From: Deltaproteobacteria bacterium | GTDB lineage: Bacteria > BMS3Abin14 | Length of the DNA stretch: 64,000 bases | Assembly: GCA_013151915.1 (NCBI GenBank) | Contig: JAADHJ010000006.1 | Span: 1-64,000 of the forward strand | Reading direction: 5' to 3' | In this document: positions 1,184-63,007 of the stretch, piece by piece | How the letters are laid out: the number at the start of each line of letters is the position of its first letter | How positions within the stretch are numbered: the stretch's first letter is position 1 | Notes under the pieces: generated by a model | The model's input: only the letters and a program-made list of their open reading frames with translations | Databases searched by the model: none | Told to the model about the DNA's origin: nothing | Made by a program: the position numbers and the translations under genes

Positions 1184-1244
1184 CATCCACCGGTTGGTGC
1201 ATCGGGTCCGCCGCCGGTCCATGGAAGTCGGATAAATTCAACCT

Positions 1245-1293
1245 TTGATGACTTCGCAAAAAGTCATGGATGGCCTTTTTACGACCCTGTCAA
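1245..1293 (+). repeat. Family A repeat, minimal copy (ends only)
   Basis: A 49-bp element in the nusG-rplK gap made of little more than the two family A ends: TTGATGACTTCGCAAAAAGTC at left and CTTTTTACGACCCTGTCAA at right, folding back on each other. The sequence CAACCT occurs at 1239-1244 and again at 1291-1296, which may be a target duplication that shares bases with the right end. Confidence 0.8.
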
Positions 1294-1314
1294 CCTGTAG
1301 GAAGGAAACGGCAA

Positions 1315-1740: not shown

Positions 1741-1813
1741 AAACCAGGCGCCGGGTACCGGGGCCTGCTCCCTGAGACCTGGTCACCGAGGTCTATTTAC
1801 TGATTTTGGGAGA

Positions 1814-1969
1814 TGATGACTTCGCAAAAAGTCATCAATGCGCCCACTGAAGGGCGCCCAAATCAATGACTTGCGTTGCAAGTCCTTAGATTTGTGAGGA
1901 AAGTGAAAATGACACTTTTCGCTTTCCGTAGAGTAAAAAGCCACGCATGGACTTTTTACGACACTGTCA
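1814..1969 (+). repeat. Family A repeat, full-length copy
   Basis: A 156-bp copy in the rplK-rplA gap. It has five consecutive hairpins: the left end TGATGACTTCGC...GTCATCA; GCGCCC/GGGCGC; a GACTTGC-centred hairpin; GAAAGTGAAAA/TTTTCGCTTTC; and GTAAAAAGCC/ACTTTTTAC at the right. GGAGATGAT is present both at 1809-1817 and at 1970-1978, so GGAGA flanks the element on each side like a target-site duplication. Confidence 0.9.
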
Positions 1970-1984
1970 GGAGATGATCGAGAG

Positions 1985-3467: not shown

Positions 3468-3497
3468 TCGCGAATATCCGGGATAGGGCTTAAATAA

Positions 3498-3654
3498 TTG
3501 ATGACTTCGCAAAAAGTCATCAACGTGCCCACTGAAGGGCGCCCAAATCAATAACTTGCGTTGCAAGTCATTGATTTGTAAAGAAAGTGAAAATGAAATT
3601 TTTCGCTTTCCGTGGAGTAAAAAGTCATGAATGGACTTTTTACGACCCTATCAA
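3498..3654 (+). repeat. Family A repeat, full-length copy
   Basis: A 157-bp copy between rplJ and rplL with the same five-hairpin layout and direction as 1814-1969. Left end TTGATGACTTCGC, right end GACTTTTTACGACCCTATCAA. It separates the normally tightly coupled stalk genes L10 and L7/L12. Confidence 0.9.
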
Positions 3655-3697
3655 TGATTAATATAAAATCACAATAGTATTTGGGAGGAAAGGTAAA

Positions 3698-15775: not shown

Positions 15776-16978
<1,203 letters not shown>

Positions 16979-21429: not shown

Positions 21430-21563
21430 TGATGACTTTGGAAAAAGTCATCAACGCATCCCATTGAGGGACGCGCAAATCGAAGATTTGTGAGGAAAGT
21501 GAAAATGACATTTTTCGCTTTCCGTGAAGTAAAAAGCCACTGATGGACTTTTTACGGCCTTGG
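21430..21563 (+). repeat. Family A repeat, diverged copy
   Basis: A 134-bp copy between rpsQ and rplN. The left end is altered (TGATGACTTTGGAAAAAGTC), the central hairpin is shortened to AAATCGAAGATTT, and the right end has decayed to CTTTTTACGGCCTTGG. The same direction as the genes. Confidence 0.85.
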
Positions 21564-21579
21564 AAAGAAGGGATTTAAG

Positions 21580-28597: not shown

Positions 28598-28816
28598 ATG
28601 GCAAAGGAAGAGGCCATTGAAGTAGAGGGGACAGTGGTGGAACCGCTGCCTAACGCGATGTTTCGCGTCGAGTTGGAAAACGGTCACCAGGTGCTTGCCC
28701 ATATTTCAGGGAAAATGCGCATGCATTACATCAGGATTCTACCTGGGGATAAGGTGACGGTTGAGCTTTCCCCCTATGATCTTACAAGGGGAAGAATTAC
28801 CTACAGGGCCAAATAA
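28598..28816 (+). CDS. infA: Translation initiation factor IF-1
   Basis: A 72-residue OB-fold factor that blocks the ribosomal A site during initiation. [19 protein letters not shown] and [23 protein letters not shown] are hallmarks. ATG 28598 follows AAGGAGAG. A family B repeat starts at the base after its stop codon. Confidence 0.97.
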
Positions 28817-28887
28817 TGATGGACTCGCAAAAAGTCATCTCCCGTCTCGGAAAACGGCTCAGAGAGATCTTTTTACGAGGTTGTCAA
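28817..28887 (+). repeat. Family B repeat, short copy
   Basis: A 71-bp element starting TGATGGACTCGCAAAAAGTC directly after the infA stop and ending CTTTTTACGAGGTTGTCAA. AATAA is found at 28812-28816 and at 28886-28890, a possible target duplication. The core CTCCCGTCTCGG...CGGCTC differs from family A. Confidence 0.8.
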
Positions 28888-28910
28888 TAAAGGATCGAGA
28901 GGAAGGTAAG

Positions 28911-29041: not shown

Positions 29042-29413
29042 GTGGCGCGTATCGCTGGAGTGGATTTACCGAGGAGCAAGAGGGTTGAGGTCGCCCTGAC
29101 TTATATTTATGGGATCGGGCCCTCAAAGGCCAGCCGGATAGTGCGGGACGCCAAGGTGGACCCCGATGTTCGTGTGGTGGACCTGGATGAAGGGCAGATC
29201 GTTCGCCTTCGTGAGGTCATCGACAAGGCCCATATGGTTGAGGGTGACCTCCGCAGGGAGGTGGCCTTCGACATCAAGCGCAAGATGGACCTGGGCTCTT
29301 ATGAAGGGCTTCGGCACCGGAGGGGCCTGCCGGTCAGGGGACAGCGCACGAAAACCAATGCGCGGTCCAGGAAAGGGCATCGGCCTTCTATCGGTGGAAG
29401 AAAAAGGAAGTAA
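29042..29413 (+). CDS. rpsM: 30S ribosomal protein S13
   Basis: A head protein forming the intersubunit bridge with L5. 123 residues, starting [26 protein letters not shown] and ending in the typical [18 protein letters not shown] tail. The start is GTG 29042 after AGGAGG. A family A repeat follows its stop within 3 bases. Confidence 0.97.
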
Positions 29414-29415
29414 AC

Positions 29416-29572
29416 TTGATGACTTTGCGAAAAGTCATCAATGCGCCCATTAAGGGGCGCGCAAATCAATGACTTGCAGGGCAAGTTGTTGATTTGTGAG
29501 GAAAGTGAAAATGACATTTTTCGCTTTCCGTGGAGTAAAAAGCCATGTATGGACTTTTTACGACCCCATCAA
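29416..29572 (+). repeat. Family A repeat, full-length copy
   Basis: 157 bp between rpsM and rpsK, all five hairpins present. AAAC precedes the element (29412-29415) and AAAC is found at its right edge (29571-29574). Extended comparison gives AAACTTGATG at left and AAACCTGATG at right. The same direction as the genes. Confidence 0.9.
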
Positions 29573-29593
29573 ACCTGATGGCTGGAGGAAAAA

Positions 29594-31774: not shown

Positions 31775-31781
31775 TGAAAAA

Positions 31782-31882
31782 TGATGGACCTGCAAAAAGT
31801 CCATCAAGCAGGATGTGCGCGGAGTGGAAGCCATCTCCCGCCTCGTAAAATAGCTTGAAGAGACTTTTTTCGGGGTTGTCGA
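31782..31882 (+). repeat. Family B repeat
   Basis: 101 bp between rpoA and rplQ: TGATGGACCTGCAAAAAGTC at left, a core with AAGCAGGATGTGCGCGGAG, and GAAGAGACTTTTTTCGGGGTTGTCGA at right in two parts. It shares its core with 34790-34891, 52840-52980 and 58969-59069. Confidence 0.8.
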
Positions 31883-31940
31883 AAATGGACGTCCGGGCGG
31901 GTTCTGAATGTTGATGTAACAGGGAAAGGTAGGGGGTTTT

Positions 31941-34607: not shown

Positions 34608-34732
34608 TTAAAAAGTCCATTAATGGTTTTTACTTAACGGAAAGCGAAAAGTGCCATTTTCACTTTTCGTGGAAATCTTCGATTTGAGCGCCCTTAAGTG
34701 GTCGCCTTGATGACCTCTCACGAAGTCATCAA
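34608..34732 (-). repeat. Family A repeat, inverted, left end truncated
   Basis: Starts right after the ATPase stop with TTAAAAAGTCC and ends CGAAGTCATCAA. Inner hairpins are present (GGAAAGCGAAAA...TTTTCACTTTTC, GAGCGCCC). Orientation is opposite to the flanking genes. A family B copy follows 58 bases on. Confidence 0.85.
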
Positions 34733-38410: not shown

Positions 38411-40317
38411 GAAGGTGTTTCGCAATCCTCTGTGCAACTGTCCTCTTTGCCGCGACAGCTATGGCCGCCGACGGATCCATCCGTATCCGGGCTGCCTCCA
38501 TGGCGGCCAGGTCCGACGGGACGCTTGTGGCTGAGGGGGGAGTAACAATTGTGGGCCAGGGGATTACCGCTCACGCGGACAGGATGACATATGATCCAGC
38601 CAGATCCTTCTTAAGCCTTTCGGGCAATGTTCTGCTTGAGGATCGTAGCGGGGGGAAGTCGACCGGCGATACCATGGACCTTGATCTTGGAACCATGGAG
38701 GGGGGGATCAAGGGAGGGGAAATCATTCTGGAACCGACCGGCTACCGGATCAGGGGGGAAAGCATCAGGCGTCTCGCGCCGGATGAGTACGAGGTGAAAA
38801 AGGGAACCCTTACCTCCTGCCCGGGAGACTGTCCGGACTGGTCCCTGACCGCCTCGAAAATCCGGGTTAAAAAAGAGGGCTATCTGACGGCGAGAAACGT
38901 CACTTTTCGCCTGGCGGGTATCCCTGTCTTCTATTCGCCGTACCTGGTATATCCCGTCAAGGCCGGGAGACAGACGGGGTTCCTTCTGCCGGAGGTGGGG
39001 TTTACCGATGCCCGCGGATGGGAGGCATATTTTCCATTTTTTGCCACCTTGGGGCAATCGGCCGACCTGACCTTGACCCCGGAGACCTTCAGCCGGGACC
39101 GGATGGGTCTGAATGGTGAATTCCGATATCTACTGCCCTATGGCGGGGGCGGCAGGTGGTCGGGTTTTGCCATCGGAGATAGGGGAGATGGCGGCGACAC
39201 CGGTCGATATTTCGTTTCGGGAAGCCATGCTCTCGCCATCCTCCCTGGTTTCTGGATGAGGGGAAGGTGGTATGATGCAGGAAATTTCAACACCCCAGCC
39301 GATTTCGGAGCGACCTTCGATCAGCGCAACCCCGGTCTCGTAGACAGGCACATCAGCCTCGATTTCGAGGGGGGTGGAATATCCCTTTGGGCCGGGCTGT
39401 CGGATCTTGCTCCCAATGGCGCCACGGTGCGAACCGGTCCGACCCTCGGGAGAGCGGAGGCGGGCGCCGCGATCGGCCCCATCTCGTACGGCGCCGGGAC
39501 AGCCGCCCTTTCCATGGACGTTACCCGGTTCAAGGGCGGTGACGAACGTTTTCTCATAACCCCGCGGTTGTCCGCCGACTGGGACGGCCCCGGGGGCCTT
39601 GCGGGGCGTCTTTCGGGGGAGTGGACGGGTTCGGCTGAGATCGAGGGGTCATCGTCCGATTCCATGGCTGTCGTAACACTGGAGGAAAGGCTCGCTCTCT
39701 CCCGATCCTTTTCCTGGGGTCTGCATCGCCTGGATATCTCTCTCCTTGGAGGTGTGGCGGACGGGTATTCCTTTGCCACGACCGGCAGCAGAGACGGACT
39801 TGACGCCGGCCGGGAGAGCTCTGTGGTGGCGGGACATATCCGGAGCCGAATTAACGCAGGCGCCCTGAACTGGGACCTCCAGGCGGGGGTGTTAAGAGAC
39901 TTCCATCAGGAGGAGTCCGTTGTTTTCGGCAGAACTTCCCTGCGTCGTGGACCGTGGTTTCTCGGGGGAACCTGGAACCGCGACGCAAAATACGGGCTTA
40001 TCCTTCCCATCGCGTCGTCCGTGTCTACGCAGAGCCATGGGTGGACCGTGGAGACCGGCTACGAGACGGACCGGCTGATGTTGAGGGTAACGCGCAATGA
40101 AGCGGATGGGTCGCCGGGTGTCCTGTCCGGGTCTTACCGCGTTTCACTGGGGGCATTCAGAGTGTCCGGTACTGCACAGTACGACCTGGACGCCGAAGAT
40201 ATCTCTGACGATACTCGGACGATTACATACGGGGCCACATGCTGGGAACTGTCCCTGACCCAGAGCCGTAACAGGGGCGGAACCAGGTGGAAACTCAACG
40301 CCGCGATAAGGTATTGA
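38407..40317 (+). CDS. lptD: LPS-assembly protein LptD
   Basis: The outer-membrane beta-barrel that inserts lipopolysaccharide. 636 residues, at the short end for the family. A signal peptide ([21 protein letters not shown]) is followed by an LptA-like jellyroll (GGVTIVGQGITAHADRMTYD) and a barrel with ETFSRDRMGLNGEFRYLLP. It ends in a terminal aromatic, Tyr, as barrels do. GTG 38407 overlaps the folC stop. Its TGA lies within the left end of a family A repeat. Presence implies an LPS outer membrane. Confidence 0.88.
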   Translation: MRRCFAILCATVLFAATAMAADGSIRIRAASMAARSDGTLVAEGGVTIVGQGITAHADRMTYDPARSFLSLSGNVLLEDRSGGKSTGDTMDLDLGTMEGGIKGGEIILEPTGYRIRGESIRRLAPDEYEVKKGTLTSCPGDCPDWSLTASKIRVKKEGYLTARNVTFRLAGIPVFYSPYLVYPVKAGRQTGFLLPEVGFTDARGWEAYFPFFATLGQSADLTLTPETFSRDRMGLNGEFRYLLPYGGGGRWSGFAIGDRGDGGDTGRYFVSGSHALAILPGFWMRGRWYDAGNFNTPADFGATFDQRNPGLVDRHISLDFEGGGISLWAGLSDLAPNGATVRTGPTLGRAEAGAAIGPISYGAGTAALSMDVTRFKGGDERFLITPRLSADWDGPGGLAGRLSGEWTGSAEIEGSSSDSMAVVTLEERLALSRSFSWGLHRLDISLLGGVADGYSFATTGSRDGLDAGRESSVVAGHIRSRINAGALNWDLQAGVLRDFHQEESVVFGRTSLRRGPWFLGGTWNRDAKYGLILPIASSVSTQSHGWTVETGYETDRLMLRVTRNEADGSPGVLSGSYRVSLGAFRVSGTAQYDLDAEDISDDTRTITYGATCWELSLTQSRNRGGTRWKLNAAIRY

Positions 40318-40450
40318 TGACTTCGTAAGAAGTCATCAAAGCGCCCACTTAGGGGCGCTCAAATCGAAGATTTGTGAGGAAAGAGAAAATGACATTTTTC
40401 GCTTTCCGTTGAGTAAAAAGGCAAGGATGGACTTTTTACGACCCTATCAA
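40314..40450 (+). repeat. Family A repeat
   Basis: 137 bp, left end TTGATGACTTCGTAAGAAGTC, right end GACTTTTTACGACCCTATCAA, shortened central hairpin AAATCGAAGATTT. The lptD stop codon TGA (40315-40317) is part of the left end. Confidence 0.88.
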
Positions 40451-51697: not shown

Positions 51698-52852
51698 ATG
51701 CAAAGTCTTGCTCAAATTCTGAAGGATAACAAACCGCGGGCGACCCTCGCCCTTGCGGACGGCACCGTCCTGCATGGATGGGGTTTCGGGACATCCGGGA
51801 CGGCTGTGGGCGAGGTTGTCTTTAACACATGTATGACAGGTTACCAGGAAGTCCTCACCGATCCCTCCTACCACCGTCAGATCGTGGTGATGACCCCCAC
51901 GCAGATCGGAAATACAGGGGTTAATTCAAACGATAGTGAATCGGCCAGGCCATATGTCGCCGGCTTCATCGTTCGGGAGAGTTCCCTGCTCACGAGCAGC
52001 TGGAGGGCGGATGAAGGGATGGAAAGCTTTCTGGCGAGGAATGGGATCACCGGGATCGAGGGTATAGACACCCGTGCATTGACGAAGCACCTTCGTGATC
52101 ACGGGGCACAGGGCGGAGTGATCGGCATCGGTGATGTTGATCCGGATGAACTCATTGCAAAGGCGAGGGGATGGGGCAGCATGGAGGGCAGGGACCTTGT
52201 CACGGAGGTAACCCCTTCCGAAGAATACAGGTGGGAAGAGGGCCCGTTTCATCCTGTTGCCGGGTTTGCCGAGGTTGAAAAAACGCGGCGCGTTGTAGCA
52301 ATGGATTTCGGAATAAAACGTAATATTCTCCGGGAATTAGCGGGTTCAGGTTGCGAGGTGACGGTGGTTCCGGCTTTCACCTCCCCGGAGAGGATCCTGG
52401 AACTTTCGCCGGATGGGATCTTCCTCTCCAACGGTCCGGGCGACCCGGGGCCGGTCAGATATGCCGTTGATACCGTGAGGGCCCTTCTGGGCAAAGTCCC
52501 CATTTTCGGGATCTGTCTGGGGCACCAGATCCTCGGCCTGGCGCTGGGCGGTCGTACTCGCAAGCTGGTGTTCGGGCACCACGGGGGAAATCACCCCGTG
52601 AAGGACCTCTCCACGGGGAAGGTGGAGATTACATCGCAGAACCACGGGTTCGTTGTGGATTCCGACTCCCTCCTCGCGGCCGGCCAGCGGGTTGAGGTGA
52701 GCCATATCAACCTGAACGACGGGACGGTGGAGGGAATACGGCATCTGGAGATTCCCGTTTTTTCCGTCCAGTACCATCCCGAGGCATCCCCGGGGCCCCA
52801 CGACTCACACTACCTTTTCCACCGTTTTGTTGAACTTATGACTATCCCGTAA
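51698..52852 (+). CDS. carA: Carbamoyl-phosphate synthase small (glutaminase) subunit
   Basis: Supplies ammonia from glutamine to CarB. 384 residues. The catalytic Cys C273 is in GICLGHQ, with the His/Glu partner in [11 protein letters not shown]. The stop TAA falls inside a family B repeat (CCCGTAAAAAGTC), so the last residues are specified by the repeat. It is separated from carB by that repeat. Confidence 0.96.
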
Positions 52853-52980
52853 AAAGTCTCTTCGAGCCTTTTTACGGGGCGGTCAAGCCAACGGCGTGAT
52901 TCCCCCGCCAGGCGAAGCGAATCCACCTGGTTCCACCCCCACCCAAGGATGTACGCTCCGCGCACATCCTGCTTGATGGA
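52840..52980 (-). repeat. Family B repeat, inverted
   Basis: Runs from CCCGTAAAAAGTCTCTTCGAG to GCGCACATCCTGCTTGATGG. It covers the carA stop codon and most of the 144-base carA-carB gap. The extra internal part CCAACGGCGTGATTCCCCCG is also visible (inverted) in the copy before trpB2. Confidence 0.8.
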
Positions 52981-58968: not shown

Positions 58969-59069
58969 TCAATAGACTCGCAAAAAGTCCGTCAAGCGGG
59001 ATGTGCGCGGGGGGGAGCCATGCCCCGCCTCGTAAAATGCCTGGAAGAGACTTTTTACGAGGTTAGCAT
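58969..59069 (+). repeat. Family B repeat
   Basis: TCAATAGACTCGCAAAAAGTC, core AAGCGGGATGTGCGCGG, then GAAGAGACTTTTTACGAGGTT. It begins one base after the pyrF stop and separates it from the receiver gene. Confidence 0.8.
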
Positions 59070-60118: not shown

Positions 60119-60206
60119 TTGATAGGGTCGTAAAAAGTCCATTCGTGGCTTTTTACTTAACGGAAAGCGAAAAGTGTCATTTTCACTTTCCTCACAAATC
60201 TTCGAT
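60119..60206 (-). repeat. Family A repeat end, left of the HD-GYP cargo
   Basis: From TTGATAGGGTCGTAAAAAGTC to CACAAATCTTCGAT, matching the first 88 bases of the inverted copy at 60904-61038. Homology stops at 60206 where the HD-GYP-bearing insert begins. The first hairpin (AAAAAGTCCA...TGGCTTTTTA) may also terminate pyr transcription. Confidence 0.85.
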
Positions 60207-60903: not shown

Positions 60904-61038
60904 TTGATAGTGTCGTAAAAAGCCCATGAATGGTTTTTTACTTAACGGAAAGCGAAAAGTGTCATTTTCACTTTCCTCACAAATCTTCGATTTGAGCGCC
61001 CTGATGGGCGCGTTGATGACTTTTTGCGAAGTCATCAA
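60904..61038 (-). repeat. Family A repeat, inverted
   Basis: 135 bp, TTGATAGTGTCGTAAAAAGC to GACTTTTTGCGAAGTCATCAA, full set of hairpins. It lies 5 bases beyond the right end of the HD-GYP-bearing element and has the same direction, so the two are in tandem. Confidence 0.9.
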
Positions 61039-61242: not shown

Positions 61243-61345
61243 GGTTCATCCGGTTAATGCGTACCTTTATTATCTTGCTGTCATTGCGAGGAGCATCGAG
61301 GGAGACGAGAGTGACGCGGCAATCCCGGGCGAAGCTGAAAAGGTC
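61243..61345 (+). repeat. 103-bp repeat, copy 1
   Basis: From GGTTCATCCGG through TGCTGTCATTGCGAGGAGC and GTGACGCGGCAATCCC to GCTGAAAAGGTC. An inverted copy lies at 62904-63007 on the far side of argC. The GTCATTGCGAGG...GCAATC core itself is an imperfect palindrome. Confidence 0.88.
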
Positions 61346-62903: not shown

Positions 62904-63007
62904 GACCTTTTCAGCTCCGCCCGGGATTGCCGCGTCACTCTCGTCTCCCTCGATGTTCCTCGCAATGACAGCAAAATCATAAAGGTATGCGTTACCCCGA
63001 ATGAACC
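62904..63007 (-). repeat. 103-bp repeat, inverted copy
   Basis: Inverted partner of 61243-61345 with a few substitutions and a one-base insertion, ending just at the rpsI terminator. With copy 1 it brackets argC. Confidence 0.88.

Follow-up and report, generated by a model that had tools for sequence, protein, structure and literature searches.

Short repeated elements lie between genes in the ribosomal-protein clusters of the stretch analysed here, with similar bases on either side of many of them, and they raise the question of whether these flanking repeats are scars of insertion, how long the duplicated target is, and what kind of enzyme could have produced it. By "the window" we refer to the whole stretch of 64,000 nucleotides, which belongs to contig C6; the assembly as a whole has 60 contigs and measures 2.27 Mb.

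Short elements between ribosomal-protein genes

A repeat search combined with a motif scan resolves the window repeats into two families, A and B, both with facing imperfect inverted repeats. Their terminal inverted repeats (TIRs) are imperfect and 19 bp long (GAYnnnnTCGYAAAAAGTC), starting with GAY and terminating in AAAAAGTC. In the window, family A measures 131–154 bp and its left end forms a near-perfect hairpin, family B measures 68–98 bp, and the shortest form, at 45 bp, comprises little beyond two TIRs placed back to back. The 21-base TIR motif occurs at 161 exact places in the 2.27-Mb genome (75 forward, 86 reverse), and its reversed control at none. A 157-bp element is present in 11 of the 41 genomes searched; besides the own genome these comprise 10 of the 11 further genomes from the host's taxonomic family. 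The TIR motif is widespread, with at least 115 stretches from records mostly titled as Desulfobacterota or Deltaproteobacteria groups. An Rfam scan of the window returned one tRNA only and no family matching the elements, and the open-licence papers searched yielded no description of them. The repeats are short, non-coding, bounded by TIRs, dispersed in multiple copies, flanked by target-site duplications (TSDs), and have ends in common with an autonomous element, and on these grounds they are MITEs, that is, gene-less, non-autonomous DNA transposons.

Six window copies sit in core ribosomal and transcription clusters (nusG–rplK, rplK–rplA, rplJ–rplL, rpsQ–rplN, rpsM–rpsK and rpoA–rplQ). The copies and their TSDs are given below, together with the state of the orthologous site in a congener (genome G001).

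1240..1246: left TSD of the 1247 copy, AACCTTT, 7 bp, matching the right TSD at 6 of 7 positions
1247..1291, + strand: 45-bp minimal copy, nusG–rplK spacer
1292..1298: right TSD of the 1247 copy, AACCTGT; a single ACCTGT in the congener
1808..1814: left TSD of the 1815 copy, GGGAGAT, 7 bp, 6 of 7 matching
1815..1968, + strand: family A MITE, rplK–rplA spacer; remnant of the same copy in the congener
1969..1975: right TSD of the 1815 copy, AGGAGAT; by eye, GGAG reads as the rplA Shine-Dalgarno sequence
3493..3499: left TSD of the 3500 copy, AATAATT, 7 bp
3500..3652, + strand: family A MITE, rplJ–rplL spacer; site empty in the congener
3653..3659: right TSD of the 3500 copy, AATGATT, 6 of 7 matching
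21431..21564, + strand: family A copy, right end decayed, rpsQ–rplN spacer; TSD not seen; congener with an internal remnant
28812..28817: left TSD of the 28818 copy, AATAAT, 6 bp
28818..28885, + strand: family B MITE, immediately following a TAA stop codon that is part of its TSD
28886..28891: right TSD of the 28818 copy, AATAAA, 5 of 6 matching
29412..29417: left TSD of the 29418 copy, AAACTT, 6 bp
29418..29570, + strand: family A MITE, rpsM–rpsK spacer; site empty in the congener
29571..29576: right TSD of the 29418 copy, AAACCT; a single AAATCT in the congener
31777..31782: left TSD of the 31783 copy, AAAAAT, 6 bp
31783..31880, + strand: family B MITE, rpoA–rplQ spacer; absent in the congener
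31881..31886: right TSD of the 31783 copy, GAAAAT, 5 of 6 matching
34627..34732, − strand: decayed or truncated family A copy, an inverted match in the repeat search
40316..40448, + strand: family A copy, 133 bp; flanks unmatched; congener without the copy and with about 14 other bases there
52840..52884, + strand: 45-bp copy at the carA end; flanks unmatched; absent in the congener
58971..59067, + strand: family B copy; flanks match at 4 of 6 positions only; absent in the congener
60119..60206, − strand: truncated family A copy, right-end half, from the repeat search
60906..61036, − strand: 131-bp family A copy; 4 of 6 flank positions match

When the borders are placed at GAT...ATC, a 6- or 7-bp flanking repeat with at most one mismatch accompanies 6 of the 11 window copies with paired TIRs, and none was found at this tolerance for the copies at 21431, 40316, 52840, 58971 and 60906. 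The duplicated AGGAGAT of the 1815 copy holds, as judged by eye, the apparent ribosome-binding site of rplA, so that the insertion left one copy of this site in place. At 52837–52884, the carA reading frame terminates on a TAA that comes from the element inserted there, within its conserved CGTAAAAAG; in the congener, a separate stop codon seems to lie close by.

Two further repeats were observed in the window. Inverted 97-nt arms of a GTCATTGCGAGGAGC-type repeat, unrelated to the MITEs and 92% complementary, lie at 61249–61345 and 62904–63000 and bracket a minus-strand semialdehyde-dehydrogenase gene (argC-like). In addition, positions 1–91 and 16881–16971 hold an identical 91-bp stretch, presumably the ends of two EF-Tu gene copies.

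Target-site duplications of 6 or 7 bp and empty sites

The direct repeats at the element borders are real TSDs, the scars of insertion. In our test the borders were held at GAT...ATC with the outer bases left free, and right flanks shuffled among copies served as the control; copies were paired when facing cores with at most three mismatches in sum lay 31–260 bp apart, and were then deduplicated, five mismatches being allowed for the window rows. An exact 6- or 7-bp flanking repeat was found in 19 of 70 TIR-paired copies of the own genome (1000 shuffles: mean 1.33, maximum 7), in 10 of 27 paired copies from the host's taxonomic family (mean 0.95, maximum 5) and in 50 of 87 from other genomes (mean 2.04, maximum 7), which amounts to 79 of 184 when pooled. 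With up to one mismatch allowed, 36 of the 70 own copies match (shuffle mean 8.2, maximum 17, 1000 shuffles), about half being left without matching flanks, and the corresponding counts are 19 of 27 in the taxonomic family and 65 of 87 elsewhere. By comparison, repeat lengths of 3–5 and 8–10 bp show a slight excess at most. The TSD is thus 6 bp, sometimes 7. A preliminary description of this DNA had proposed true insertion with a duplication of about four to six bases, and had named as its test whether the flanks of the other copies are enriched in matching bases over chance; the enrichment is strong and the insertion stands, whereas the size has to be corrected to 6–7 bp.

Among exact 6-bp sites not adjoining another element (46 sites, strands pooled), A stands at the first position in 97% and at the second in 85%, T at the fifth in 85% and at the sixth in 97%, and the two central positions are free. 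The target preference is therefore AANNTT, with a weak pyrimidine/purine preference outside it. The element borders are GAT...ATC, and the neighbouring AA and TT are target DNA. Because TT before GAT and AA after ATC mimic a continuation of the inverted repeat, the flanking repeats had appeared to overlap the element ends by a few bases, and the AANNTT target explains why the borders had seemed uncertain. The individual repeats first cited are all in place and can now be parsed. GGAGATGAT, at 1809–1817 and 1970–1978, consists of the 7-bp TSD (GGGAGAT on the left, AGGAGAT on the right) followed by GAT; on the left these three bases are part of the element end, on the right they are flank. CAACCT, at 1239–1244 and 1291–1296, straddles the 7-bp TSD AACCTTT/AACCTGT. 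Likewise, AAAC flanks the copy placed at 29416 (AAACTTGATG and AAACCTGATG), and AATAA is found on both sides of the copy placed at 28817.

Element-free orthologous gaps, suggested earlier as a check on the insertion points, were found in the congener, in which the flanks compared are about 80–93% identical and from which the orthologous stretch was obtained for 10 of the 11 window copies. The element is lacking there at seven sites (1247, 3500, 29418, 31783, 40316, 52840 and 58971), and a remnant of a shared copy persists at 1815 and 21431. Three of the seven are empty sites with a single copy of the sequence duplicated here, namely 1247 (ACCTGT), 3500 (AATAATT) and 29418 (AAATCT); the sites at 40316, 31783, 52840 and 58971 are not clean and contain other base differences too. 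The spacer at 28812–28891 holds a family B MITE here, and the congener (L224) has a remnant resembling family A in the same place, an independent use of one site.

Full-length insertion sequences and the reading of the duplication

Full-length insertion sequences of about 1.9 kb (mostly 1877–1922 bp) with MITE-type TIRs, encoding a DUF772 + DDE transposase, occur in Desulfobacterota-type genomes. Full-length pairs were sought in L242 and in loci L248–L315, only those with a TIR pair at 1640–1960 bp being retained, and an exact 6- or 7-bp TSD is present in 21 of the 35 end pairs (17 of 6 bp and 4 of 7 bp; shuffle mean 1.66, maximum 7, 2000 shuffles), copies within one genome (G193, G206, G208) not being independent. 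One further pair has an 8-bp repeat. The 14 pairs that lack an exact 6- or 7-bp TSD include some mispaired ends (at least L242, L308 and L267) and others with AA..TT-like but differing flanks, which perhaps stem from recombination between copies. In genome G206, four copies with equal transposase scores carry AAGTAA, ATCCTT, AAGGAT and AAGCTT, each on both sides, and four different TSDs in four such copies indicate that the duplication spans all six positions.

The 596-aa transposase of locus L252 matches PF05598 (DUF772), PF01609 (DDE_Tnp_1) and PF13751 (DDE_Tnp_1_6), all over cut-off, and as a query it retrieved relatives in 53 of the 291 genomes searched from its class. Residues D167, D374 and E498 are invariant in 23 of 23 aligned transposases, among many other invariant residues, and are putatively catalytic. 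A PF01609 profile search of 12 genomes of the host's taxonomic family led to genome G005, where the TIRs bracket 1665 bp with a 520-aa ORF containing DUF772 and DDE_Tnp_1; the same transposase starts about 80 bp inside a MITE-type TIR in G005, G001 and G008. The G005 element is the only long copy in the host's taxonomic family, its ORF is without the block around E498 and its flanks are unmatched; its protein, used as a query, found relatives in 14 of 50 motif-carrying genomes. The own genome has no PF01609 match, only a 29-residue transposase fragment at the end of contig C23. With an assembly in 60 contigs, a repeated insertion sequence may be missing from the own genome, and the active source, not seen in the host's taxonomic family, may be unassembled or lost. 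The ORFs beside unpaired TIRs are cellular genes only (47 ORFs scanned, mostly from 87 candidates, among the first 25 of 129 families listed), and four PF01609 loci of the congener (L226, L231, L235 and L238) show no TIR-like site at zero or one mismatch. A plasmid search with the L252 transposase gave relatives all below 60% identity, the best at 38% in Microvirga and others annotated as IS1182 family. An IS110-type transposase ORF between two MITE-type ends (L221, 2262–4088) was set aside, perhaps being an IS110 inserted into a MITE.

Taken with the TSDs, these elements lead to the explanation that we favour: the MITEs have very probably been moved in trans by a DUF772 + DDE_Tnp_1 transposase that leaves a 6–7-bp TSD at AANNTT and is encoded by 1.9-kb (approximate size) insertion sequences whose ends are those of the MITEs. 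In sequence, the apparent kinship of MITE and insertion sequence is that of their TIRs; descent of the MITE interiors from the insertion sequence would be conjectural. In the route that we infer, which takes in the cut chemistry, the mobilisation in trans and the use of a DUF772/DDE transposase by the MITEs of the own genome, the transposase from an insertion sequence of about 1.9 kb would act on MITEs carrying the same ends and would join these ends to the target with a stagger of 6 bp, less often 7 bp, preferring AANNTT. Gap repair by the host would then duplicate the 6–7 bases, giving [AANNTT]GAT...ATC[AANNTT].

The flanking repeats could be read in other ways. A duplication of only 2 or 4 bp, with AA and TT forming part of the element ends (TTGAT...ATCAA), would account for the near constancy of AA/TT in the MITEs, for the tendency of mismatches at positions 1 and 6 to leave the consensus base intact next to the element, and for the finding that only two positions covary among copies selected for TTGA/TCAA ends. 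We consider it very improbable and refuted by the full-length copies, whose TSDs vary at the outer positions and yet match on both sides (AAGTAA, AAGGAT, AATAAT, AATTAT, AAAGAA, ATCCTT, ATTTTT). Among MITEs with matching central NN, a non-T at left position 5 recurs on the far side of the element in 15 of 19 cases. Flanks that vary in step around a constant element set the duplication at six bases, not at two or four. A 2-bp duplication with AA..TT preference and ends fixed as TTGAT/ATCAA was dropped, because the outer bases covary and the full-length copies vary at six positions. An even smaller chance attaches to palindromic elements of the REP/BIME or IS200/IS605 type, mobilised by a single-strand (HUH) transposase, which would suit the near-perfect hairpin at the family A left end and the intergenic position of the copies. 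However, such elements insert without target duplication, and REP/RAYT elements are defined by this absence and by an HUH transposase, whereas here a 6–7-bp TSD is accompanied by long TIRs and the full-length elements encode DUF772/DDE proteins, a transposase of DDE type. Finally, chance matches in AT-rich spacers, which might be suspected because AANNTT leaves two free positions, so that one matching pair is weak evidence, and because 5 of the 11 window copies are unmatched, are refuted by the shuffle, which retains the AANNTT bias and yields 1.3 exact matches per 70 copies against the 19 observed.

Known transposon families and head-to-tail arrays

Correia elements are of the IS630/TA type, and their ends and TSD differ from those of the MITEs described here; Correia elements and MITEAba12 are likewise short, TIR-bounded, non-coding, multi-copy and TSD-flanked. 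For the transposase from L252, the best family match is the NCBIfam IS1182 model NF033551 (149.4 bits over residues 68–540, short of its cut-off of 270), and the copy from the host's taxonomic family scores 116.3 bits against the same model, also below 270; the general ISNCY model, whose cut-off is 325, gives 49.3 bits for L252. In ISfinder, the ISDol1 group of ISNCY comprises elements of about 1.6–1.9 kb with 6–7-bp duplications, and its type element comes from a Desulfobacterota species; its size and TSD length fit the group here. For digIS, a model was built for an ISDol1 subfamily (PMC8147514). The domain make-up of DUF772 + DDE is common to IS1182 and the transposase here, whereas IS1272, of the IS1182 family, is reported to replace an inverted repeat and leave no TSD (PMC5678879), which differs from the regular 6–7-bp TSD of the group here. 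Overall, the transposon group appears to be IS1182-related and is possibly ISDol1, and the window elements would be its MITEs.

Adjacent MITE copies have one TSD-length spacer in common. In a junction scan allowing spacers of 5–8 bp, all 15 junctions of the own genome are head-to-tail, right end to left end, with a spacer of 6 bp in 14 and of 7 bp in one; in the host's taxonomic family, three of four junctions are head-to-tail with a TSD-length spacer and the fourth is ambiguous, so that every unambiguous junction in the arrays of both sets runs head-to-tail. Exact patterns with spacers of 5–8 bp gave, in 12 genomes, five head-to-tail junctions, each with a 6-bp spacer, while neither of the two head-to-head arrangements occurred; this set overlaps the previous junctions, with at least one in common. 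Tandem MITE arrays are found at loci L007, L012, L019, L084, L142, L326, L334, L335, L340, L341 and L354.

The IS30 junction spacer is as long as its TSD, and IS30, a copy-out-paste-in element, resembles the group here in a near-palindromic target preference and in head-to-tail junctions. The likeness is one of behaviour only, and an IS30-type family model is absent among the Pfam/NCBIfam hits of the transposase at E 0.1. Inverted-repeat targeting by IS30 yields exclusively IRL–IRR junctions (PMC9333248), and its TSD is 2 bp, compared with 6–7 bp here. Given this precedent and the head-to-tail bias with TSD-length spacers, the arrays may have been built by IS30-like inverted-repeat targeting, an intermediate attacking beside an existing end in fixed orientation; we offer this tentatively, as a possible addition to the MITE explanation. 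Head-to-head neighbours form long palindromes, which are deleted by cells and lost by assemblers, and such loss could also leave a head-to-tail bias, through survival instead of mechanism; it is a serious rival. In addition, some junction repeats differ from the outer repeats, which speaks against inverted-repeat targeting.

A wider scenario is speculative and, taken whole, rather unlikely. Here a distinct IS1182-related group of insertion sequences, with a 6–7-bp TSD at AANNTT, would target its own ends in fixed orientation via a junction that joins two ends across a spacer equal to the TSD, giving rise to head-to-tail MITE arrays, and would have seeded ribosomal-protein spacers family-wide while intact transposase genes nearly vanished from the family genomes sampled.

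For the genomes concerned, the exact borders allow a precise annotation of copies and empty sites, and the MITE family can be tied to a transposase despite the near-absence of the latter from the host genome. The window illustrates that a transposon can load several spacers within essential ribosomal-protein gene clusters. The less ordinary part is the head-to-tail rule, through which a connection with inverted-repeat targeting of the IS30 type can be put to the test beyond the IS30 family itself.
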